This document shows positions 451 to 35,876 of a stretch of 35,876 bases of DNA, one piece after another. Within the stretch, counting starts at the first letter, position 1; the number at the start of each line of letters is the position of its first letter. A program made the translations under genes and the position numbers. The notes beneath the pieces are model-generated. The model did no database searches. It had not been told where the DNA came from and saw only the letters and a list, made by a program, of their open reading frames with translations. Location of the stretch: positions 1 to 35,876 of the forward strand of contig QKDC01000109.1 of the NCBI GenBank assembly GCA_003246755.1, given 5' to 3'. Source of the stretch: Gemmatimonadota bacterium (lineage in GTDB: Bacteria > Gemmatimonadota > Gemmatimonadetes > Gemmatimonadales > GWC2-71-9).

Positions 451-1071
451 TCAACTTAACTGCGGGAAGCAGAGCACTGGCAGCGCCTCGAGGATGAAAC
501 TGTAGAGTGCACTCCCCAGGCGGACGTCTCCCTGGACGCGGGTGGGCGAGGTCTGGTCCACGAGTTCCGGTCGTAGGTGGAGAATCAGGAGGGTCTCCAG
601 CTCTCCGGTCCGAGCCGATGGTTTTCCCATGACCGGTGTAAAATCGAGGCTGAAGATGTCGACCAGGCGGACTGAACCGGCGGTGCGAATGGTACTGAGC
701 GCTTCCTGGTGGGGTTCCGCGGCGTGGGCGGTGAGCACCGCAATATCGGTCACGCCTGCGACTTCCTCCCAGTCGGCGATAAGTTCGTTCATGACTCGAT
801 GGAGCGCCTTTCGGCTCACCGTGGCCACCCCAGCCTCGTCTCGGCGGCCGCGGCCTTTGACTCCGAAGGGGATGCAGGGGGAACGCACGACGCCGATCGC
901 GGCGGAAAGGTCATCGGCGAGGTGGTCGAGAATGATCGTATCGGTGCCCAACGGCAGGTGCGGTCCCCGGATTTCGAGCGTTCCGGCGGGGATGATGAGT
1001 TTGCCCGAGTCAGCCAAGATCCGGCCGACGGTGACGGGAGTCATTTCCTCGAGTCGCAAAGGACGGGTCAT
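451..1071 (-). CDS. Creatininase-family (creatinine amidohydrolase-like) protein, divergent active site
   Basis: 206 residues; creatininases are usually 230-260. The family signature is recognisable near residues 29-44 (PAGTLEIRGPHLPLGTD), followed by LTAHAAEPHQEAL where the family has NGHGGN, and by RTGELETLLIL where the family has HAGELET. Creatininases are cytosolic metal-dependent amidohydrolases. Here the His of the E-x-H pair is Arg and the His of HAGE is replaced, so several usual metal ligands are absent and the hydrolase activity is doubtful. ATG at 1071 lies head to head with the start of the sensor kinase gene at 1072. No clear Shine-Dalgarno is visible. The gene is co-directional with the TolC-like gene 110 nt downstream. 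Family assignment is good; the reaction is unknown. Confidence 0.75.
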   Translation of the reverse strand: MTRPLRLEEMTPVTVGRILADSGKLIIPAGTLEIRGPHLPLGTDTIILDHLADDLSAAIGVVRSPCIPFGVKGRGRRDEAGVATVSRKALHRVMNELIADWEEVAGVTDIAVLTAHAAEPHQEALSTIRTAGSVRLVDIFSLDFTPVMGKPSARTGELETLLILHLRPELVDQTSPTRVQGDVRLGSALYSFILEALPVLCFPQLS

Positions 1072-17941: not shown

Positions 17942-18766
17942 TCAACTCGGCTTGGTGGCCTCTTTCATCTCACGGACGAACTGTCCAACCGCCTCGACCA
18001 TTTGACCCTTGCGGCCCGCAGAGCTGGCGATATGAGAAACAACGGCCGAACCGCTGATGGCACCCGCCGCCCCCATTTCGAGCGCCGCGCGAACATGAGC
18101 GGGTTTGGAGATCCCGAAACCGAGCAGCGGTGGGGCGGAGCCGAGTCTTTGCAGTTGGGCGATGAGCAGGTGGCTGGTGTCCCGCAGGCGCTCATCCGTG
18201 CCGGTGACCCCAGGGCGAGTGACCACATATACGTAGCCTTCACTGCTCGAGGCCACCGAAGTCAGTGTGGCTTCATCGGCATTGGGTGGTGCGATCAGGA
18301 CAGGTGCGATCCCAGTCTCTCGAGCGGCTTCCGCGAGTTGCGCAGACTCGAGGACCGGAGCATCGGCCACCAGCACGCTATCGGCACCCGCGTGCGAGGC
18401 CTTGACGTAGAAGTCGGCGATGCCGCGACGGAAGAGAAGGTTGGCATAGACCAGCATCCCAATCGGAGTGTCTGGGAAGTCCGTCCTCACGGCGGTAACG
18501 ATCTCCCAACAGTCCGCGATAGCGACGCCACCCGCGAGCGCCCGTGTGGAAGCGGCCTGAATGACAGGACCATCCGCGACGGGATCGGAGAAGGGCAGAC
18601 CGAGTTCCAGTGCATCGGCGCCGCCCCGAACCAGGGCCCTGACCAAATCGAGACTGGTCTCCGGGTCGGGGTCACCAAGGACAACAAATGGGACGAAGGC
18701 ACCTTCGCCCTTGGACCGAAGACGGGCGAACAAGGCATCGTAGGACGCGCGGCCCCGATCGCTCAC
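17942..18766 (-). CDS. trpA: Tryptophan synthase alpha chain
   Basis: 274 residues, normal length. It cleaves indole-3-glycerol phosphate to indole and glyceraldehyde-3-phosphate and passes indole to TrpB inside the alpha2-beta2 complex. The catalytic Glu and Asp are in [14 protein letters not shown]. Other family blocks are [21 protein letters not shown]-like VLVADAPV, and [14 protein letters not shown] with the phosphate-binding [12 protein letters not shown] at 18766 overlaps the trpB stop by 4 nt (ATGA). Last gene of the trp operon. No clear terminator follows before the efflux promoter, so read-through is possible. Confidence 0.97.
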
Positions 18767-19953
18767 GACGCACCCCCGGTTCGTGGCAAATGCAGATTCA
18801 CGGTACCCAGGTCCTTATCGCCCCGACCTGAGAGGTTGACGACGAGGTGCAGTGGCTTCGATGATGCGCGCACGAGCCGCAAGGCTTCCGAGAGGGCGTG
18901 GGCCGACTCGAGCGCAGGCAGAATGCCCTCCGCCTTCGCCAATGTGGAGAACGCCTGCAAGGCTTCGCCGTCCGTGCACGATACGTACTCCGCTCGCCCC
19001 GTCTCCTTGAGATATGCGTGCTCCGGTCCGACACCCGGATAGTCGAGTCCCGCCGAGAGGGAGTGACTCTCGAGCACCTGTCCGTCCTCGTCCTGCAGGA
19101 TCGAACTAAAGGCTCCGTGGAGGACCCCAGGTGTTCCCTTGAGTAGGGTGGCGCCGTGTCGGGGTGTCTCCAATCCTTCTCCACCAGGTTCAACACCGAT
19201 GAGTCGGACATTCTCGTCGTCGAGGAAGTCGGAGAAGATCCCTATCGCGTTCGAACCTCCACCTACGCTGGCTATCACCGCATCGGGGAGACGGTTGTCG
19301 TTGGCGTCCCGAAATTGTTGGCGGGCTTCGCGGCCAATGACCCGCTGGAATTCGCGGACGATGAAGGGAAAGGGATGCGGACCGGCAACCGTTCCCAAGA
19401 GGTAGTGTGTCGTCTCGTAGGACGCCGCCCAGTCGCGGAGTGCCTCGTTGATCGCATCCTTGAGCGTACAGCCACCCTGGTTGACCGGTACGACTTCTGC
19501 CCCCATGAGTCGCATCCGGAAAACGTTCATCTCCTGGCGCTCGATGTCCTTGGTACCCATGTACACCTTGCACTCCATGCCGAGGACTGCCGCGGTCAGT
19601 GCCGTGGCGACCCCGTGCTGCCCCGCGCCGGTCTCCGCGATCAACCGGTGTTTTCCAATCCGCCGAGCCAGGAGCCCCTGTCCGAGTGCCTGATTGGTTT
19701 TGTGGGCGCCGCCATGGAGGAGGTCCTCGCGTTTGAGCCAGATCGACGATCCGGTGTCGGCGGTGAGGTTGCGGCAGCGATAGAGCGGTGTGGGCCGGCC
19801 AGCGTAGGTGGCGAGTAGCGATTCGAGTTCGGCGGTAAACTCCGGATCCACCCGTGCATCCAGGAAGGCAGCTTCGAATTCCTCGAGTGCGGGCACCAGA
19901 ATCTCCGGCACGAAAGACCCGCCGAAGCGGCCGAAGTACCTTGGGAGTTTCAT
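18763..19953 (-). CDS. trpB: Tryptophan synthase beta chain
   Basis: 396 residues from ATG at 19953 ([12 protein letters not shown]). The frame is open far upstream, but that part is antisense to other frames of trpCF and is not TrpB-like. It makes tryptophan from indole and serine with PLP. The PLP lysine is in the block [16 protein letters not shown]. The phosphate loop GGGSNAIG and the blocks [17 protein letters not shown] and [16 protein letters not shown] are all present, as in the TrpB1 type that pairs with TrpA. It overlaps trpCF by 4 nt and trpA by 4 nt. Confidence 0.97.
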
Positions 19954-21338
19954 GACAGATCTTTCCTTCGCCTGCCCGCGCCTCTCCGAGCCTTGAAGAA
20001 TGCGGCGATCAAACCCGCGTTCTTGATACCCGGCTCGTCTTCGACCCCAGAATTGACGTCGAGCGCGCCCGCACCGGTTGCTTCCGCCGCCCCGGCGTTG
20101 TCTGGTGTGAGCCCCCCGCTCAAGATGACACGGTCGAGATCCTGTCGACCCCGCAGCAGAGACCAATCGAAAGTGTTTCCGGTGCCGCCTCGCGTCTTCG
20201 CACTCCACGCATCGAGGAGCAGTCGATCTTCGCCGAACTCGCCCGCCGAGGGAATCCCATCTCGAACGCGAACCGCTTTCCACACTTCGCAGGATGTCGG
20301 TACAAGGGCCTTGATCGCGCGGACGACCTCCGGTGTCTCCTCTCCGTGCAGTTGGACGGCGTCCAACCCGAGTCGCCGGACCAACTCTCCGATGCGTGCC
20401 GGGGTTTCGTTGACGAACACGCCGACCCATCGGAGGGGAACGGTGTCCCGCAGGCGAGCGGCCTGTTCGACCACCACCGTGCGGGGAGACTCATTCGCGA
20501 AGATGAGGCCTCCATGGGTGGCACCGGCTTTCCAGGCCGCCAAGGCATCCTCGGCACGTGTGAGCCCGCACACTTTTGTCGTTCCGTAGACGAGTCGGCG
20601 CACCGCTCCAGCAAGGTCGCGCTCTTTCATCAGTGCCGTTCCAACGAGGAATGCATCCACCAACGGGCGGAGTTCCCTGACATCCTCATGATTGCGGATC
20701 CCGGACTCACACACGACGATCCGGTCGGCGGGAACTCGTGGGGCCAGTCGTTTCGTCACATCCCGATCGACCGCCAAGGTGCGCAGGTCACGATTATTGA
20801 TCCCAATGACGGGTGCTTCGAGTGTGAGGGCGCGTTCGAGTTCGTCTTCCGAGTGTACCTCGGTGAGCGTCTCGATACCCGCCTCATCCGCCGCCGCCCG
20901 ACACTCCGCGAACGATGCGTCGTCGAGAACCGAGAGCATGAGAAGCACCGCGTCCGCCCCTGCGACGCGTGCCTCGAACACTTGGTAGGGGTCCACGACG
21001 AAGTCCTTACAGAGCAGGGGGCAGTCTACCAATGCGCGTACCGTCCGGAGGTCGTCGTGCGAGCCATTGAAGAATGGGGCATTGGTGAGCACGGATACGG
21101 CATCCGCGACGGGCGCGTATGCATGGGCGACCTCCGTGAGATCGAGTGCGGGACGAATCTCCCCTCCTGAAGGAGATGAACGCTTGCACTCGAGAATGAA
21201 CCCCGGGTGCGCTTGACTGAGGGCCGCGCTGAGACTCCGGTTGGAGGGTGTGGTCTCCTGGATCAACGTCGGCAGTGGCGTGACGGATCTCCGACGCGCC
21301 AGATCTTGCCGAGTCTGCTCCACGATCCGGTCAAGCAC
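19950..21338 (-). CDS. trpCF: Bifunctional indole-3-glycerol phosphate synthase / phosphoribosylanthranilate isomerase
   Basis: 462 residues, the length of the fused enzyme of enteric bacteria. Residues 1 to about 255 are Trp[17 protein letters not shown] with the catalytic Lys, [46 protein letters not shown]. Residues from about 256 are Trp[16 protein letters not shown] with the catalytic Cys, [40 protein letters not shown] with the catalytic Asp, [10 protein letters not shown] and DVNSGVE. It catalyses two consecutive steps from phosphoribosylanthranilate to indole-3-glycerol phosphate. ATG at 21338 overlaps trpD by 8 nt. The fusion is typical of enteric and coryneform trp operons. Confidence 0.96.
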
Positions 21339-22350
21339 CTTGAGAAACCTTTACCCACCGGTCGAGTCGATCGGCACACCGTCCCGAGTCGATGGCATCG
21401 AGTGCAATCTCGACCCCGGCACCCAGTGTGTCGCTGAGACCGGCGATCCACGCGAGGGCTCCGGCGTTGACGGCCACCGCGGCTCGGTGCGCCGGTTCCA
21501 CACCGTTTCCCCCGCCAAGCAAACCTCTCAGCCATTTGGCGTTGTGCGTGGGGTCGCCGCCACGGAGGGCGGCGATGTCATGCCTGGCCAGACCGGCCTC
21601 CTCCGGTGTGAACTCCAGTTCAGTGACCCGCCCGTCTTTCCAGAGCGCCGCCGTCGTCACGCCATGGAGGGCGATCTCATCGAGTCCTTCGCCATGGACC
21701 ACGAGTGCCGCCTCACATCCCAGCAGCCCGAGGGTGACCGCGAGTGGGCGGCAGAGGGACGGATCGTAGACTCCCATCAGTTGCAGCACCGGGTGGCTCG
21801 GATTGGAGAGCGGCCCAAGCAAGTTGAAGATGGTTCGCGTGGCCAGCGTCTTCCTCACCGGCATCGCGTGGCGCACACCCGCGTGGTACTGCGGGGCGAA
21901 GAGGAAGCACACACCGACTTCGTCGAGGCACTGTCGTGCCACCTCAGGGGACGGGTCGAGCCTGACACCAACGGCCTCCAGCACGTCGGCCGAACCGCAC
22001 TGTGAGGACACCGAACGGTTACCGTGCTTGGCCACCGGCAGTCCCATCTCCGCGGTCACGATGGCCACCGCCGTGGACACATTCACCGTTCCCGTGCCAT
22101 CGCCGCCCGTTCCACACGTGTCGGCGTATCGATAATCCGGAGCGGGGAAGGGAAGCGCGGCAGCCCGAAGCGCCGAGGCGGCCCCGGCGATTTCCTCCGG
22201 GGTTTCACCACGCGCCTTGAGGGCACACACCAGACCCGACACCTCGATGTCGTTGTACTCCCCCGTCATGAGATGTCGGAAGATCTCCGTCATCTCTTCC
22301 CGGGTGAGGTTGCGTCTGCTCAGCGCATCGAGCACGGTCGCAATCCGCAT
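21331..22350 (-). CDS. trpD: Anthranilate phosphoribosyltransferase
   Basis: 339 residues, standard length, not fused to the amidotransferase. It transfers phosphoribosyl from PRPP to anthranilate. The PRPP/metal loop CGTGGDGTGTVNVST is intact. KHGNRSVSSQCGSADVLEA, HAMPVRKTLATRTIFNLLGPLSNP and VVHGEGLDEI follow in the usual order. The start is 1 nt after the trpG stop; it overlaps trpCF by 8 nt. Cytosolic dimer. Confidence 0.97.
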   Translation of the reverse strand: MRIATVLDALSRRNLTREEMTEIFRHLMTGEYNDIEVSGLVCALKARGETPEEIAGAASALRAAALPFPAPDYRYADTCGTGGDGTGTVNVSTAVAIVTAEMGLPVAKHGNRSVSSQCGSADVLEAVGVRLDPSPEVARQCLDEVGVCFLFAPQYHAGVRHAMPVRKTLATRTIFNLLGPLSNPSHPVLQLMGVYDPSLCRPLAVTLGLLGCEAALVVHGEGLDEIALHGVTTAALWKDGRVTELEFTPEEAGLARHDIAALRGGDPTHNAKWLRGLLGGGNGVEPAHRAAVAVNAGALAWIAGLSDTLGAGVEIALDAIDSGRCADRLDRWVKVSQGA

Positions 22351-22351
22351 G

Positions 22352-22960
22352 TCAGACTTCCCCGCCGAGTTTGGCCCACCGCATTACGCTTTCGATCAGC
22401 AGGCCCCCATGCGGGGTCAGCACCGATTCCGGGTGAAACTGGACTCCGAGAATGGGATGTTCGCGGTGCCGCACCGCCATGACGATGTCGTCGGTCGTGG
22501 CGATCGTCTCCAGGGAGTCGGGGACCTCGTAGCTCGCGAGAGAGTGATAGCGGCCGACGGTGAGTGGGGTCGGCATTCCCGAGAAGATGGACAATCCATG
22601 GTGATCGACCGTGGAACTCCGCCCGTGGAGAATCACGTCGGCACCGGTAACGACACCACCGAACGCTTCGATGATGGCCTGATGTCCCAGGCAGATGCCA
22701 AAGACGGGAACCCGGCCGGCGGCGGTCTGGATCAACTCGATACAGCAACCCGCCGAAGCCGGCCCACCGGGCCCCGGTGACAGGACAATCAGGCAAGGTC
22801 CGGGAGCCGCCTCGGCTCTCTCCAGGGCGTGTGCCGTCGGAATGGAGTTGCGCCAGACCTCGACGGAGGCCCCTCGCCGAGCGAACTCATCGACCAGGTT
22901 GAAGGTGAAGGAGTCGAAGTTGTCGATGAAAACGACATGGAGATCGGCCGGGGCGGTCAT
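22352..22960 (-). CDS. trpG: Anthranilate synthase glutamine amidotransferase subunit
   Basis: 202 residues; class I glutamine amidotransferase. It begins VVFIDNFDSFTFNLVDEF, has the oxyanion loop LSPGPGGPASAG, the nucleophile Cys in VFGICLGHQAIIEAFGG, and His and Glu of the triad in LGVQFHPESVLTPHG. It supplies ammonia to TrpE. It is encoded separately from trpD, unlike the fused TrpGD of E. coli. ATG at 22960 overlaps the trpE stop by 4 nt. Confidence 0.96.
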   Translation of the reverse strand: MTAPADLHVVFIDNFDSFTFNLVDEFARRGASVEVWRNSIPTAHALERAEAAPGPCLIVLSPGPGGPASAGCCIELIQTAAGRVPVFGICLGHQAIIEAFGGVVTGADVILHGRSSTVDHHGLSIFSGMPTPLTVGRYHSLASYEVPDSLETIATTDDIVMAVRHREHPILGVQFHPESVLTPHGGLLIESVMRWAKLGGEV

Positions 22961-24546
22961 TGTGTCGCCCCTTCCCCGTGGATGGCGTCCAGGACAGCCG
23001 CGGCCTTGCGCCGGGTTTCGTCAGCCTCGCGCGCGGGATCGGAGTCGAGCACGACACCTGCTCCTGCCCGGATGTGGGCCACGCCGTCGGCGACCAGGGC
23101 CGAGCGGATCACGATAGCCGTATCCATCTCGCCCGCGTGGGTGATGTAACCCACCGCGCCGCCGTAGGGACCACGCTTGTTGGTCTCGTGCTGCCGGAGC
23201 AACTCCGCCGCCCGAATCTTTGGCGCACCAACCAGCGTTCCCATGTTGAGCGATGCGGCGTAGGCGTGGAGCGCGTCCAGGCCGGGCGCGAGCGTTCCCT
23301 CGACTTCGGAGACGAGGTGCATCACGTGCTGGTACCGATCAACGGTCAGGAGCTTCGTCACTCGGCGCGAGCCTGGGGCACTGACGCGTGCCACATCGTT
23401 GCGGGCCAGGTCCACCAGCATCATGTGCTCGGCGAGTTCCTTGGTATCGGTGATGAGAGCCGCCTGCAGTCTGGCATCGAGTTCGTGGTCGACGGACCCG
23501 TCGGCATGCCGGCCGCGAGGGGCGGTACCCGCGATGGGTCGAAGCATGACCTTGCGTGTAGGGCCATCCACCCGAACCGCGGTCTCCGGAGACGCACCGA
23601 AGAGCGTACTGTCCGGTCCGTGGACGAAGAACATGTAGGGGCTGGGGTTTGCCGCGCGAAGCCTGATGTAGGCGGCAAAAGGGTCGTTCGAGTGCGTGGT
23701 GAACGTGCGCGAGGGAACGATCTGGAAGACGTCACCCGCGACGACATGCTCTTTGAGTTGTGCCACGGTCGAGGCGTAGGCTGCATCATCGAGATCCACC
23801 GACCATGGTGCTGATGGATCCGGGGGGGGAGTGGGGTGAGTGGTTCCTCTTGCGGCCTCAACCACCCGACTCAATTGCTCGACGGCACGCACGGCATCGT
23901 GGTAACTCGACTCGGTTGATTCACCCCCGACGACCGGTGCCACGATCGTCGTGGTGCGATGCTTGTGATCCAGAATCAGGATCTGTTCAGGGACCCAGAA
24001 GAGGAAATCTGGATACCCCAGAGGATCGGCGAGTGCGTCAGGAAGATCTTCGTAAAGATCGACTAGGTCATACGCAAAGACCCCTGCCGCGAGATGCGAC
24101 AGGAGTGCCGGCTCCGACACCAGTTTGGGGTTGAACACCGCTGCCCGAAGCACGTCGAGAGGCCCCCGCGCCGTCAGCCGGGCCTGCTCGTCACGGACTC
24201 CGGTCTCCCGGTCCGGGTACCCTATCCGGAAGCAGTCACCGTCTCGGCTGACGTGGGACGTGTCGCGCAGCGAGTCAGCGACGAACGCGGCGAGGGCCAC
24301 ACCGTTCGGCGTCAAGGGAGTGAGAGTGACCTTCCGGCCGCGTCCCTCGATCCGCAGCATCGTCCTGGGAAGAAGGATGCTCTTTTCTCCAACCCCCGTC
24401 GCGGCGTCTGCCGACTCCAGGAGTAGCGTGTCCGCTCTCTTACCCTCGTCAGTCAACCCGGCGTAAAGCACCAGGGGGTCGGGTGCACCACTCAGTCGGC
24501 GCACTAGCGGGAGAATGTCCCCCGGTTCCAGCTTGGGGCCGCTCAT
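22957..24546 (-). CDS. trpE: Anthranilate synthase component I
   Basis: 529 residues. The chorismate-binding domain is complete: VAGDVFQIVPSRTF, PIAGTAPRGRHADG, EHMMLVDLARNDVARV, MNMGTLVGAPKIRA-like SLNMGTLVGAPKIRAAELL, GAVGYITHAGEMDT and GAGVVLDSDPAREADET. The N-terminal LLES motif (42-45), part of the tryptophan feedback site in enteric TrpE, is present, so the enzyme is probably inhibited by tryptophan. Several blocks, such as the LLESAD start and DRYQHVMHLVSEVEG, look closer to enteric TrpE than to the common TrpE of other phyla, judged by memory. ATG at 24546 overlaps the aroF stop by 4 nt. Confidence 0.96.
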   Translation of the reverse strand: MSGPKLEPGDILPLVRRLSGAPDPLVLYAGLTDEGKRADTLLLESADAATGVGEKSILLPRTMLRIEGRGRKVTLTPLTPNGVALAAFVADSLRDTSHVSRDGDCFRIGYPDRETGVRDEQARLTARGPLDVLRAAVFNPKLVSEPALLSHLAAGVFAYDLVDLYEDLPDALADPLGYPDFLFWVPEQILILDHKHRTTTIVAPVVGGESTESSYHDAVRAVEQLSRVVEAARGTTHPTPPPDPSAPWSVDLDDAAYASTVAQLKEHVVAGDVFQIVPSRTFTTHSNDPFAAYIRLRAANPSPYMFFVHGPDSTLFGASPETAVRVDGPTRKVMLRPIAGTAPRGRHADGSVDHELDARLQAALITDTKELAEHMMLVDLARNDVARVSAPGSRRVTKLLTVDRYQHVMHLVSEVEGTLAPGLDALHAYAASLNMGTLVGAPKIRAAELLRQHETNKRGPYGGAVGYITHAGEMDTAIVIRSALVADGVAHIRAGAGVVLDSDPAREADETRRKAAAVLDAIHGEGATQ

Positions 24547-25559
24547 TGGAGTCGCTTTCCGGCAGCTCGGGCAAAAGGCTCAAGTTCGCGCATCAGGACA
24601 TCAAACTGTTTGGTGTCGAGTGACTGTCGGCCGTCAGAGAGCGCCTTTTCGGGGTCGCAGTGAACCTCGATGAGCAGGCCGTCGGCGCCGCACGCCGCGG
24701 CCGCCTTCGCCATGGGTCCGACCAGCTCGCGCAGACCCGTGCCATGGGAGGGGTCGACCATCACGGGGAGATGGCTCTTCTGTTTGATCAGTGGCACCGC
24801 GTTGAGGTCGAGCGTGTTCCGTGTGGCCGTTTCGAAGGTTTGGATGCCCCGCTCGCAGAGAATCACGTTGGGATTGCCTTCAGCGAGAACGTATTCCGCG
24901 GCGAGGAGCAGGTCTTCGATCTTGGCGGCCATGCCACGCTTGAGGATGACGGGTTTGCGGCTCTGCCCCAAGGCACGGAGCAGGCGGAAGTTCTGCATGT
25001 TCCTCGCCCCGCATTGAAAGGCATCGGCATACTGCTCGACCACCGCCACGTCCCCTACCTCGACGACCTCTGTCACGCACGACATGTCGAGTTCATGGGC
25101 CACATCGCGAAGGATTTCCAAGCCTTCCTGACCGAGACCCTGGAAGGAATAGGGGCTTGTCCTCGGTTTGTAGGCGCCTCCGCGAAGGACCAGGACGCCG
25201 GCCAGTTTGACGGCTCCTGCCGTGCGCTGCATCTGGTCGCGACTCTCCACCGCGCAGGGTCCCGCGATGACGGTGAAATGCCCACCACCGATCTGTGCCC
25301 TGCCGAGGTCCACGATCGTATCGTGGGGGTGAATTTCGCGACTCACCAGTTTGTACGGGGCGAGGATGCGCTGGACGGATTCCACCAGCGGATGACTCTC
25401 GAGGTGCAGCTGATCGATCACGCGTTCGTCGCCGATAGCTCCCAGCACGACCCGCTCGGCGCCGGGCATGTATAACGGCTTGAGGCCAAGCGCCTCGATG
25501 CGGGCCAACAACTCGTCGGCGGTCGCCTTGGTGGCGTCGGGTTTGAGGACGATGATCAC
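24543..25559 (-). CDS. aroF: 3-deoxy-7-phosphoheptulonate (DAHP) synthase, type I-beta with N-terminal regulatory domain
   Basis: 338 residues. Residues 1-68 form a ferredoxin-like domain (MIIVLKPDATKATADELLAR) as in the Thermotoga-type enzyme, where it mediates feedback by aromatic end products. The barrel follows with GGGHFTVIAGPCAVES, LRGGAYKPRTSPYSFQGL, DAFQCGARNMQNFRLL, PVILKRGMAAKIED, ILCERGIQTFE and VMVDPSHGTGLRELV, which hold the metal and substrate residues. It joins phosphoenolpyruvate and erythrose-4-phosphate in the first shikimate step. It is the first structural gene after the trp attenuator, so entry into the shikimate pathway is coupled to tryptophan supply. ATG at 25559 is 30 nt past the attenuator T-run. 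Confidence 0.96.
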   Translation of the reverse strand: MIIVLKPDATKATADELLARIEALGLKPLYMPGAERVVLGAIGDERVIDQLHLESHPLVESVQRILAPYKLVSREIHPHDTIVDLGRAQIGGGHFTVIAGPCAVESRDQMQRTAGAVKLAGVLVLRGGAYKPRTSPYSFQGLGQEGLEILRDVAHELDMSCVTEVVEVGDVAVVEQYADAFQCGARNMQNFRLLRALGQSRKPVILKRGMAAKIEDLLLAAEYVLAEGNPNVILCERGIQTFETATRNTLDLNAVPLIKQKSHLPVMVDPSHGTGLRELVGPMAKAAAACGADGLLIEVHCDPEKALSDGRQSLDTKQFDVLMRELEPFARAAGKRLQ

Positions 25560-25588: not shown

Positions 25589-25617
25589 AAAAAAACCCAC
25601 CACAGTGTCGCGGTGGG
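25589..25617 (-). terminator. Intrinsic terminator of the trp attenuator (3:4 hairpin)
   Basis: On the minus strand CCCACCGC, loop GACACT, GTGGTGGG (8 bp with one G-U pair, 25617-25596), then seven T residues (25595-25589). It lies between the trpL stop and aroF. Its 5' arm is also complementary to the segment just after the Trp codons (see antiterminator), which identifies it as an attenuator, not a simple terminator. Confidence 0.92.
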
Positions 25618-25673
25618 CTGGGAACGAAACCGTCTTCGATCCGTGGTCGCTAGGCAGACCAGGCCCTACCGCG
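25609..25673 (-). promoter_or_regulatory. Antiterminator (2:3) and leader (1:2) pairing of the trp attenuator
   Basis: The RNA segment from 25673-25659 (CGCGGUAGGGCCUGG) pairs with 25621-25609 (CCAGCCCACCGCG): CGCGGU with ACCGCG, GGGC with GCCC, UGG with CCA, with two single-base bulges (A25667, C25662), 13 bp in all. This uses the 5' arm of the terminator and so excludes it. Segment 2 can also pair with CCUGGCCC (25690-25683), covering the Trp13 codon, as the protecting 1:2 stem. A ribosome stalled on the Trp codons would block 1:2 and allow 2:3. Confidence 0.85.
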
Positions 25674-25724
25674 GCGAGTACCGGGCCAGGACCACCAGCA
25701 AGGGATACCAGGGACAGGCTTCAT
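25650..25724 (-). CDS. trpL: trp operon leader peptide
   Basis: 24 codons plus TAG, too short for normal gene finding. The peptide starts MKPVPGIPCWWSWP and has Trp at positions 10, 11, 13 and 22, an extreme excess of the rarest residue. An in-frame TAG lies two codons before the ATG, so this is the only start. GGGAG lies 13 nt upstream, rather far for a Shine-Dalgarno. A consensus -35 hexamer exactly 36 nt before the ATG suggests a nearly leaderless transcript. The peptide has no job of its own: ribosome stalling at the Trp codons when charged tRNA-Trp is scarce would let aroF-trpEGDCFBA be transcribed. Confidence 0.92.
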   Translation of the reverse strand: MKPVPGIPCWWSWPGTRRGRAWSA

Positions 25725-25731
25725 GCTCTAA

Positions 25732-25760
25732 CGGTTACTCCCAGGTGCATGACCTGTCAA
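25732..25760 (-). promoter_or_regulatory. Putative trp operon promoter
   Basis: Minus-strand TTGACA at 25760-25755 is a perfect -35. At 17-nt spacing the -10 position holds TAACCG (25737-25732), a poor match. Transcription would start next to the trpL ATG at 25724. The -35 hexamer lies between the end of the aminotransferase gene and trpL. Confidence 0.45.
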
Positions 25761-25774
25761 GCGAGGGTTCCCCC

Positions 25775-26911
25775 TCACGCCTCGAAGGCCTCGAGCGCCT
25801 CGATCAGACGGTCGACATCTTCGGTGTCGTTGTACACGTGTGGCGTAATCCTGAGGGCGGTCCCGCGCACACTCGCATACACGCCCCTCGACGCCAAATG
25901 TGCCCCGAGACCGTCAGGTACTCCCCCATCCCGTCGCAACCCGAGGTAGTGTCCTGCCCGTCGCTCCGCGGGCACGGCCCGGTAGCCAAGGGACTCCGTC
26001 TCGGCAACGATCCGAGCCGCCAGGTGACTGGTCGTTTGATAGAGGTTCTCGACCCCCCATGCCAGCAATTGGCGCAGGCCATCGATGGCGACCGGGAGGA
26101 GGACGAAGTTGGAGGGTTCTCCCACGTCGTACCGTCGGGATCCCGGTTGAAAGGAATCACGGTAGTGGGTGAGCCCGGCGAAGTTCTCCGAACCCTCTCT
26201 GGCGATCCAGTTGTACTCGATCGGTTGACCGTCCTGCCACTGGGGTGCGGTGTAGAGGAACCCGAGGCTGTAGGGTCCGAGCAGCCATTTGTACGTCGCG
26301 CACACCATGAAGTCGGGCCGGACCGCCTGCACGTCGAAAGGCATCACGCCAAGAGATTGGGTGGCATCGACGGCCAAGGTGGCGCCGGCCTCCCGAAGAT
26401 GGCTCGCGATCAAGGGCAGGTCGAGGAGCGCCCCGTCGGTCCAGTGGCACACCGGAAGAGCCGCCACTTTCACGCGCGGATCGATCGCGTCGAGAATAGT
26501 CCTCGTCCAGTCATGATCGGCGGGGCGAGGCAGGAGAACGACCTCGGCCCCTACATCGCGCGCTCGCGCCTGCCAGGTGTACACCATCGAAGGGAAACTT
26601 CCGTCCAGAAGGAGAACGCGCTCACCGGGCCCCAGGGGGAGATTGCGCGCGGCCACCGCCAGGCCATAGCTCGTGGCGGGGATCAGTGCCACATCATCGG
26701 ACGAGGCATCGATCAGTTGACCGAAGAGCGAGCGGGCCTCCTCCAATTCCCGGAAGAAATCCGGTGGTGTGGTGGTCCATGGGTGGAGTTTCCCGGCGAA
26801 GGCTCCACGCCCCGCGGCGACGGAGGAGCGGAGCAGGGGGGACATATAGGCGCAGTTGAGATAGGCCACCTCGCGGGGGATATCGAACAACTCTCGCTGA
26901 CAAGCGAGCAC
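25775..26911 (-). CDS. Class V (PLP-dependent) aminotransferase / cysteine desulfurase-like protein
   Basis: 378 residues from GTG at 26911, which overlaps the TAG stop of the upstream gene by 1 nt (TAGTG). The frame is open further up, but that part lies in the neighbour's coding region. Fold type I PLP features are visible: YLNCAYMSPLLRSS at the N-terminus, ALIPATSYGLAVAA, the PLP-pairing Asp in LAVDATQSLGV, the Schiff-base Lys in VCATYKWLLGPYSLGFLY, and the C-terminal ALRITPHVYNDTEDVDRLI. The family includes isopenicillin-N epimerase-like enzymes, cysteine desulfurases and kynureninase relatives; the substrate cannot be read from the sequence. It ends just before the trp promoter, but no link to tryptophan metabolism is shown. 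Confidence 0.85.
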   Translation of the reverse strand: MLACQRELFDIPREVAYLNCAYMSPLLRSSVAAGRGAFAGKLHPWTTTPPDFFRELEEARSLFGQLIDASSDDVALIPATSYGLAVAARNLPLGPGERVLLLDGSFPSMVYTWQARARDVGAEVVLLPRPADHDWTRTILDAIDPRVKVAALPVCHWTDGALLDLPLIASHLREAGATLAVDATQSLGVMPFDVQAVRPDFMVCATYKWLLGPYSLGFLYTAPQWQDGQPIEYNWIAREGSENFAGLTHYRDSFQPGSRRYDVGEPSNFVLLPVAIDGLRQLLAWGVENLYQTTSHLAARIVAETESLGYRAVPAERRAGHYLGLRRDGGVPDGLGAHLASRGVYASVRGTALRITPHVYNDTEDVDRLIEALEAFEA

Positions 26912-28083
26912 TAGAACGTCCCGTTCACCAGCATCAACCGGACCCCAGGACGCCAGCCGCTGGTTCCATTCGGTAATTCGAAACGGATCCTGGCGGGCAT
27001 GGGGAGGGGAACACCCCACCGCGGCTTTTCTCCGAGCGAAAGGAGTGAGTTCTGGAAGTTGCTAGACGCCGTCTCGATGCCGCGATCGCGGTCTTTGTAG
27101 AGGAGGGCGCCGGCAACCAACCCGATCGTCGCGGTCGCCGTGGGAATACCCACCGCCGCTTTGTCGCCGTCCACGTTGAAGAGCAAGTCGAGGCCCAAGC
27201 CCGCCACGCCGCCCGCGACACCGGCGATGCTGACCAATCGCACCTTGTTGGTTGAAGGATTCCATGCCTTCGCCGCCGGGATCGAGGCCAGGATTCCCGC
27301 GTTCCCGCCGAGCAGGATCGCCGTCAGGAGGTCATCGTCCTCGAGGTCGGTGAGGATACCGAGCGCGGTGCCGTACCAGGTACCCCAGAGAGAGGCGTTG
27401 AAGATGAGGCTCGATGTGCCGCTGGAGATGTCGTTGCGTGCCAGGTAGAGTCCTGCGCCCAAGCCTGTCAAGCCACCGATGACTCCAGCGGTCCATGGGG
27501 CCGTGTCGGAGGTGCTTTCACCACAGACACCGCCCGGAATGCCCTGGCAGGGGTTTTGAGTCGTACCGATGTCGAGCACGTCTCGCCAGCCGAACCCCTG
27601 CCAGGTTCCCCAGAACGTCGCAAAGCTGATCAACCCCGACTGTCCGGCCGTGAGGTCCCGCGAGTTCGCGTAGGCCTTCGACGCGAAAAAGCCGAGCGGC
27701 GCCCCGACGAGAAGTCCCGCTCCGAACGCTTCCGGTTCGTCGGCACCAAACGCAGCCGGCACCGCTAGGCCGAGGAAACTCCCGTAGAGCGTGTTCCAGA
27801 CCACGAACCCGGTCTTGCCGCGTCCGGCTTCGAGTTCTCGGCTCGTTTCCTCCGAACGTCCGCGCGCAAGTTCGGCGGACGGGGTATCGGGGAACCGCCG
27901 GAGGATCATCCGTAGGATCTCGTCTGCGACTCGGGTATCACCTCGGGCTCGAAACGCCTGGGCGGCGTCGAGTAGCACGGCCGCGGAGTCGGCCCTGGTG
28001 ACCTGGGCCTGAAGTGGGGAGGCGGTGGAGGCGGTGCCAATGGTGATGGCGAGGAGAACGGCGGTTCGGACCGAGCGGCTCAT
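26911..28083 (-). CDS. Exported protein with TPR-like N-terminus and glycine-rich repeats, unknown function
   Basis: 390 residues from ATG at 28083, with CGGAG 7 nt upstream. A signal peptide ends at LQAQ (about residue 27). Residues 30-75 resemble a single TPR-type helix pair (LLDAAQAFRARGDTRVADEILRMILRRFPDTP, shown here in part). The rest holds at least three related units built on a FxxWxTxxGxxxG pattern: FVVWNTLYGSFLG, ISFATFWGTWQGFG, IFNASLWGTWYGTALG, each followed by a Gly/Ala-rich hydrophobic stretch. A Cys pair lies in a loop (NPCQGIPGGVCGES). This suggests a membrane or outer-membrane protein with internal duplication. I recognise no named family. Confidence 0.7.
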   Translation of the reverse strand: MSRSVRTAVLLAITIGTASTASPLQAQVTRADSAAVLLDAAQAFRARGDTRVADEILRMILRRFPDTPSAELARGRSEETSRELEAGRGKTGFVVWNTLYGSFLGLAVPAAFGADEPEAFGAGLLVGAPLGFFASKAYANSRDLTAGQSGLISFATFWGTWQGFGWRDVLDIGTTQNPCQGIPGGVCGESTSDTAPWTAGVIGGLTGLGAGLYLARNDISSGTSSLIFNASLWGTWYGTALGILTDLEDDDLLTAILLGGNAGILASIPAAKAWNPSTNKVRLVSIAGVAGGVAGLGLDLLFNVDGDKAAVGIPTATATIGLVAGALLYKDRDRGIETASSNFQNSLLSLGEKPRWGVPLPMPARIRFELPNGTSGWRPGVRLMLVNGTF

Positions 28084-34717: not shown

Positions 34718-35876
34718 TCAGACAGCGCGCTCGATCTCCAGCATCCCGACGAGTCTGCTCACTGCCTCGCGGACGAACGCGGGGTCCTCAGCGTGAGCGT
34801 CGATCTCGACGACTTCGACGCCCGACGGTAGACCCGATCTGAGTGCAGCGAAGAACGCTTCGTCGCTCTCCGCATCGTATAGCGGGCCGCCGGGAATGGA
34901 GTAGCGCCCGACTCCGCGAAGGGGAAGCATGAACACTGTCTTTCCCTTGGTGCTTTGAAGACGCCGGCACACCTCGTCGGCCACCTGGACGAATTCCTCG
35001 CGATTGAGGCGCGGCACGAAGATCACCGGGCTGTGAAACACGTGCAGGTGGTCCTTGTACCTCCTGGGCACGACGTTGGGTTCGACGAACAACCCCAAGT
35101 GCTCTGCCCCTCCAGGGCAGATCACCTGCGGCAACCCCAGGCTGCCCGCCACGGTGAGACGTTCAGGGCCACCTGCCCGGAGACCGCCGAACACGTCGTC
35201 CGCGATTTCGCCGAGTGCGTAGTCGAAGACGGCGTCCACCACACCCTCCTTCATCAACTGCTCCATCGCCCGACCGCCGGAACCGACAGCATGGAACACG
35301 ACGACGTCGCAGCCCGCTTCCCGGAACAGTTTGACCGCGAGAGTGGCACCTTCGGTCAGCACACCGAGGTTGGTCATCGCGACCAGCGGTCGATCGCTGG
35401 CTCGGGTTTCTACACCTCCGTCACCTTGCGCCATCCCATACGCGGCGGCCGCCGCATTTGCGAGGATTCGTTCGGTGAACGGATTCAAGCCCATCAAATC
35501 GCTGACCGAGAACATCATGGTGATGTCTTTGATGCCGACGAACGATGAGGTGTCGCCAGACGCAACCGTGGAGACCATCAGTTTCGGAAACCCATAGGGC
35601 AGCGCTTGCATCACCTGAGTGCAGGATGTGGTTCCCTGTGTACCGCCGATACCGAGCACCGCGTGCGCTCCACCGGAACCGATCAGATCGAGCAGGATCT
35701 TGGTGGCGCCTGCGGTCATGATCGGTGCGGCCTTCTCCCGAGTCGGCCCTTCGAGTAGAGCAGACAACTCCGCGCCACCAGCCCTCGCGACGTCTTGCCT
35801 GCTCACATCCGGAGCCGTCTGTGGTTCGCCGACGACCCCCATGTCGATCAAGGTGGCCTTGCCGCCAAGAGACTCG
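34718..35876 (-). CDS. Tm-1-like ATP-binding (UPF0261) protein, N-terminus cut by right edge
   Basis: 386 codons visible; the frame continues past 35876, since the codons before the TTG at 35851 (ESLGGKAT) still read as coding. Full-length members have about 400 residues. Diagnostic blocks are VLGIGGTQGTTSCTQVMQAL, LPYGFPKLMVSTVASGDTSS, GIKDITMMFSVSDLMGLNP, VFHAVGSGGRAMEQL and PRLNREEFVQVADEV. The family is named after tomato Tm-1, which binds viral replication protein; its bacterial role is unknown. Here it converges with a hydroxyproline dehydratase-like gene, so a catabolic role is only a suggestion. Confidence 0.9.
   Translation of the reverse strand, partial: ESLGGKATLIDMGVVGEPQTAPDVSRQDVARAGGAELSALLEGPTREKAAPIMTAGATKILLDLIGSGGAHAVLGIGGTQGTTSCTQVMQALPYGFPKLMVSTVASGDTSSFVGIKDITMMFSVSDLMGLNPFTERILANAAAAAYGMAQGDGGVETRASDRPLVAMTNLGVLTEGATLAVKLFREAGCDVVVFHAVGSGGRAMEQLMKEGVVDAVFDYALGEIADDVFGGLRAGGPERLTVAGSLGLPQVICPGGAEHLGLFVEPNVVPRRYKDHLHVFHSPVIFVPRLNREEFVQVADEVCRRLQSTKGKTVFMLPLRGVGRYSIPGGPLYDAESDEAFFAALRSGLPSGVEVVEIDAHAEDPAFVREAVSRLVGMLEIERAV

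Follow-up and report, generated by a model that had tools for sequence, protein, structure and literature searches.

The aroF-trp operon studied here, which lies in a stretch of Gemmatimonadota DNA of 35,876 nucleotides analysed as a whole (the window), is very probably controlled by a classical trp attenuator that acts on transcription and is mediated by the ribosome, and this explanation, the best available, includes the transfer of leader and operon as a unit. An attenuator in front of an aroF-trp operon had been proposed in an earlier note on this DNA, and the gene assignments agree with it: a promoter and the leader are followed by aroF-trpE-trpG-trpD-trpCF-trpB-trpA (Table 1). The leader has the features of its class, namely a short open reading frame (ORF) in which Trp codons stand side by side, placed immediately ahead of trp genes.

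Results

Leader ORF and promoter

The leader ORF lies about 50 nt past the stop codon of an aminotransferase class V gene and about 90 nt ahead of aroF. Trp codons 10, 11, 13 and 22, noted earlier as those of a short Trp-rich leader, are all present in the ORF. Those of the stretch of codons 10-14 are kept in 11 leaders (see below), while Trp22 is found in only 2/11, those of the window and G062, and is positioned 3' of the segment 2 core. Being unconserved and so placed, Trp22 is unlikely to be a Trp sensor.

Table 1 Features of the leader and operon in the window, and variant leaders in related genomes
Feature	Position	Strand	Basis or remark
Aminotransferase class V (PF00266, distant from SufS)	25775..27019	minus	directly upstream of leader
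-35 box TTGACA	25755..25760	minus	sequence; TTGACN or variant in relatives
-10-like hexamer TAACCG, weak	25732..25737	minus	ends 7 nt before leader ATG
trpL leader ORF, 24 codons, MKPVPGIPCWWSWPGTRRGRAWSA and stop	25650..25724	minus	sequence
Sensor Trp codons 10 and 11	25692..25697	minus	sequence, conservation
Sensor Trp codon 13, within segment 1	25686..25688	minus	sequence, conservation
Segment 1, 5' arm of 1:2 protector stem	25678..25701	minus	folding
Segment 2, core CGCGGTAGGGC at 25673-25663, inside ORF (codons 18-22)	25659..25673	minus	folding
Segment 3, 3' arm of antiterminator, overlaps terminator 5' arm	25609..25622	minus	folding, alignment
3:4 intrinsic terminator hairpin	25594..25619	minus	folding, alignment
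T7 tract	25589..25595	minus	sequence
aroF, DAHP synthase of Thermotoga 1RZM type with N-terminal domain	24543..25559	minus	NF006421 477.7 bits (cut-off 335); 1rzm
trpE, proteobacterial type	22957..24546	minus	TIGR00565 499.3 bits (cut-off 494.65); tree
trpG	22352..22960	minus	profile search
trpD	21331..22350	minus	TIGR01245
trpC-trpF fusion	19950..21338	minus	NF006945 556.6 bits (cut-off 380)
trpB	18763..19953	minus	TIGR00263
trpA	17942..18766	minus	TIGR00262
Tandem trp attenuators upstream of trpD	L199 (G021:C46), L198 (G046:C68)		
Two-Trp leader before trpD	L201 (G299), L202 (G331)		

The ORF is preceded by a sigma-70-like promoter in which TTGACA, a spacer of 17 nt, TAACCG and a further 7 nt lead up to the ATG. 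A sigma-70 scan of the window did not pick it up, because the -10 hexamer is weak. In the leaders of relatives for which upstream sequence was read, TTGACN or a variant stands about 17 nt ahead of the -10-like hexamer (G139 excluded for the -35), which is GATACT, TATACT, TATCCT, CAGACT or similar and ends 6-10 nt ahead of the ATG, so that there is no room for a Shine-Dalgarno site. Judging from this arrangement, the trpL leader is probably leaderless, with transcription starting at the AUG or a few nucleotides from it. Leaderless trpL leader RNAs are known in Sinorhizobium (PMC7298713) and Streptomyces (PMC8079986).

RNA pairing and folding

The 13-bp antiterminator claimed for the leader was recovered as a 2:3 duplex with two bulges, pairing 25673-25659 with 25622-25609. 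Its energy was -22.9 kcal/mol, compared to -14.6 +/- 2.6 for dinucleotide shuffles of segment 2 against segment 3 (p=0.006). The shuffle p was <=0.054 in 8/11 leaders, and the combined p over 11 leaders was 5e-9, an optimistic value as the sequences are related. The protecting 1:2 stem is likewise present in the window as a hairpin of -27.4 kcal/mol, and a stem including the Trp codons forms in 11/11 leaders, though the stability of this region was not above that of shuffles in the window (p=0.2) and its folding was unremarkable against shuffles in most of the 11 leaders. The terminator had been described as an 8-bp hairpin with seven Ts; the hairpin and the Ts, which run down to 25589, are there, but the hairpin is 10-11 bp long. 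The hairpin at 25619-25594 with its T7 tract exceeds the other terminator-like sites listed between 17000 and 27000 in number of pairs and in length of T run.

The full window leader folds as the 1:2 stem and 3:4, and removal of segments 1 and 4 leaves a sequence that adopts the 2:3 antiterminator; 2:3 and 3:4 are mutually exclusive in silico. In transcripts that stop at segment 3 and have segment 1 masked, pairing of segment 3 with the ORF had a mean probability of 0.52-0.91 in all 11 leaders, and with a ribosome at the stop codon 3:4 formed in 6/6 leaders folded. With a stalled ribosome on the full transcript, the energy minimum included the terminator in 4/6 leaders, and antitermination must therefore be kinetic. 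In the E. coli trp leader antitermination is likewise kinetic.

Conservation of the Trp codons and of the 2:3 and 3:4 pairing in relatives, which the earlier note had put forward as a check, was found in 11 leaders. When the partner was shifted by 1-3 columns, the share of paired cells fell to 30-53% for 2:3 (87% in register) and to 33-55% for 3:4 (94% in register), the pairing being derived from the same sequences. Covariation counts for 2:3 and 3:4 were few and not clearly above shuffles, the leaders being related. Two related genomes, G299 and G331, carry two G-C to A-U changes in the 2:3 helix, by which the antiterminator is kept and the terminator is mismatched. G062 retains the competing pairing despite a different sequence; in its stalled-ribosome fold, ORF sequence lies opposite both segments 3 and 4.

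Leaders in related genomes

Close AroF orthologues of the window's (69-77%) occur in G002, G017, G028, G050 and G062, and a Trp-rich leader stands ahead of aroF in 5/5; the leader peptides of this set are MRISCRTEQSWWPWRGVSRGGPVCA, MSYPIRPTLWYWSWRDIRGGPGCV, MQHLVTLNLWWWPWRNSAVGRASV, MIGRNVSTQWWWPWRDFAVGQSVRLSR and MTSVAFRHLWWRWRGFSRGRPWCA. The covariance model R1, made from these five leaders and that of the window, was searched against the family and then the phylum (395 Gemmatimonadota genomes). At E<=1e-6 it matched in 12/395 genomes, comprising the six model sources, five new leaders (G138, G139, G140, G299 and G331) and one partial match. Four of the five new leaders are directly before trp genes and one is at a contig end, and altogether 10 homologous leaders in other Gemmatimonadota retain the same parts as that of the window. 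The partial match, in G193, has no trp gene nearby and falls outside the trp loci. Weaker matches (E from 1e-5 to 1e-2), seen in many relatives, were regarded as noise, given the short calibration and the GC-rich genomes; the weak matches in G124 and G036 were inspected and contain no Trp-rich ORF.

Counting the tandem leaders of two genomes, the leader is present in 13 genomes with this type of aroF-trp operon; G001 is outside the count, as its contig begins in trpD. As a check on contamination, the operon occurs in contigs of up to 304 kb in independent genomes of the family. At the 23 other trpE loci of relatives, Trp-rich ORFs occur upstream by chance, none of them with a terminator.

Some leaders are placed or built differently. 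Those of G299 and G331 (family f2), M(T/A)NR..CWRPWRD(S/T)SRSRALRV, have two Trp codons (CWRPWRD) and precede trpD-trpCF-trpB-trpA, and neither genome gave a match to the window TrpE at E<=1e-20. G021 and G046, of one genus, have two successive units before trpD, each consisting of a Trp-rich ORF and a terminator, with the peptides M(T)xRNP..(R/S)WWRDERHGG.LRAISG and M.V.P.FRAPLRRWWWPTPPPGGAARA; complementary segments 2 and 3, unscored, can be read by eye in both units. Tandem leader ORFs have been described for mgtCBR (PMC3641672), and a limited literature search showed no tandem trp leaders among the titles and abstracts returned. G042 has a promoter and a terminator before trpE with no room for a leader ORF (L129, G042:C9, ~560-720, minus strand), and it is possible that this site is a decayed attenuator.

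Operon genes and phylogeny

The gene order of the window operon is common to the relatives and to Ferrimonas, Salinivibrio and a Kangiellaceae MAG, and a gammaproteobacterial MAG contig agrees with this order over the part that it covers. Trp-rich leaders are found before the aroF-first trp operons of Ferrimonas, Salinivibrio and the Kangiellaceae MAG; going by these sequences, the arrangement is not unique to the window. The aminotransferase-V gene occupies the corresponding position in G002, G017, G028, G050, G138 and G139 (52-60% identity). Elsewhere in the window, a UPF0261 gene (34718-35851, minus strand) was absent from 40/40 relatives searched.

In the TrpE tree, the attenuated Gemmatimonadota and the gammaproteobacteria were separated from 23 other Gemmatimonadota TrpE and Firmicutes with support of 100/100. 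The attenuated Gemmatimonadota TrpE formed one clade (98/98), sister to the gammaproteobacterial TrpE, for which the sampling is thin (five sequences). The TrpCF fusion model NF006945 was above cut-off in 10/151 relatives, largely leader-carrying genomes. The AroF tree shows a corresponding grouping and takes in three further MAGs, one each from Myxococcota, Methylomirabilota and Lentisphaerota. The AroF of these MAGs (L033, L034 and L036) is 70-76% identical to the window's and had no trp genes of the window type in the stretch examined; the likeness may be due to either transfer or misbinning.

Discussion

From the observed parts, their conservation, the in silico pairings, the gene order and the phylogeny, we infer the transcription start, the ribosome stalling and the Trp-dependent termination of the following scheme. 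RNA polymerase would start at the leader AUG or no more than a few nucleotides from it, with a ribosome following. At low levels of charged tRNA-Trp, the ribosome would stall at codon 10, 11 or 13 and cover segment 1, leaving segment 2 to pair with segment 3, and the polymerase would read on into aroF-trpEGD(CF)BA. With tRNA-Trp charged, the ribosome would pass segment 2 and reach the UAG, where it would hide part of segment 2; on its release 1:2 would re-form, segment 3 would pair with segment 4, and transcription would end at the T7 tract.

The hairpin could be a plain terminator of the aminotransferase-V gene, downstream of which it lies on the same strand, with the Trp-rich ORF being fortuitous. 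This is highly improbable, as ORF, Trp codons and hairpin persist in G299 and G331, where they stand before trpD, and in G062, where the aminotransferase-V gene was not found adjacent; in the relatives, moreover, promoter-like sequence separates that gene from the ORF. The leader might also act by translation, a stalled or terminating ribosome controlling initiation at aroF, or in trans through its RNA or peptide in the manner of rnTrpL and peTrpL, since the leaderless trpL RNAs of Sinorhizobium do act in trans (PMC7298713). We give this little weight, although somewhat more than the plain terminator, because a conserved intrinsic terminator with a U tail and a competing antiterminator are sufficient for control of transcription. 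A role in trans could exist in addition to attenuation.

Regarding the origin of the operon, the leader and operon are most likely shared as a unit with Gammaproteobacteria by horizontal transfer, in either direction. Transfer of the whole operon is the best-fitting reading of the TrpE phylogeny and the fused TrpCF, both of which place it with Gammaproteobacteria, and of the matching gene order and leaders found there. The Gemmatimonadota group is sister to the five gammaproteobacterial TrpE sampled, which is compatible with either direction of transfer. It is unlikely that the attenuator arose within Gemmatimonadota and that the operon was inherited vertically: the single clade of attenuated TrpE and the operon GC of 0.64, against 0.63 for the contig, would fit such a history, yet the 100/100 split from the other Gemmatimonadota TrpE, the fused TrpCF, the score of TrpE above the cut-off of the proteobacterial model and the patchy spread speak against it, and the equal GC shows only that any transfer must be old.

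Beyond the horizontal transfer itself, we moderately favour the view that attenuator and operon are a mobile, self-regulated cassette which passed between Proteobacteria and Gemmatimonadota and later took on several shapes in its new host: probably leaderless forms, forms before trpD of a split operon (G299, G331), tandem forms (G021, G046) and a bare terminator (G042).

Ribosome-mediated trp attenuation is a textbook mechanism; the mechanism is thus already known, and it is the phylum Gemmatimonadota that is new for it. A full-text literature search, with most subscription papers outside it, gave no report joining Gemmatimonadota and leader-peptide attenuation, and the present results extend this translation-coupled switch to such a phylum. 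In a survey from 2010, amino-acid leader peptides were found only in Proteobacteria and Actinobacteria, besides the survey's own Firmicutes case (PMC2965389). If the transfer is true, a regulator whose action requires ribosome and polymerase to be coupled has come through a move between phyla intact. Observing Trp-dependent readthrough in a Gemmatimonadota isolate would thus test directly whether transcription and translation are coupled in it. What is gained from a second attenuator in series could be learned from the two relatives with tandem attenuators, which offer a natural experiment.

Comparison with known systems

No Rfam leader family was matched in the window at gathering score or E 10, and the same held for the window leader against RF00513 (Trp_leader), a model which does match the leaders of E. 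coli (93 bits) and Salinivibrio (41.5). Rfam gave no T-box match upstream of the trp genes, and TrpR (PF01371) was found in 0/12 genomes, with G000 being 96% complete.

Like the enteric trpL of E. coli (RF00513), the window leader has Trp codons in segment 1, the 1:2, 2:3 and 3:4 pairings and an intrinsic terminator, and the fused TrpCF is common to both systems. The enteric order and spacing attributed to it in the earlier note holds only in rough outline: at 24 codons its ORF exceeds the 14 of E. coli and takes in segment 2, aroF is the first gene, and the leader is probably leaderless. With the trp attenuators of Corynebacterium and Streptomyces it shares ribosome mediation, occurrence outside Proteobacteria and a double or triple UGG, the phylum and operon content being different (PMC1262725). 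The leaderless trpL of Sinorhizobium and Streptomyces resemble it in an ORF placed at the transcript start or close by, a Trp run and a terminator (PMC7298713, PMC8079986); they control trpE alone or trpE(G) and differ in sequence, and the leaderlessness of the window leader is putative.

The operons of Ferrimonas, Salinivibrio and the Kangiellaceae MAG agree with the window in gene order, TrpCF fusion, Trp-rich leader and AroF clade, although by eye the leader peptides have little in common beyond the Trp run. Unlike the window leader, that of Ferrimonas has a 5' UTR, whereas the Kangiellaceae leader, like those of the Gemmatimonadota, starts close behind a -10-like box, at a distance of 8 nt.
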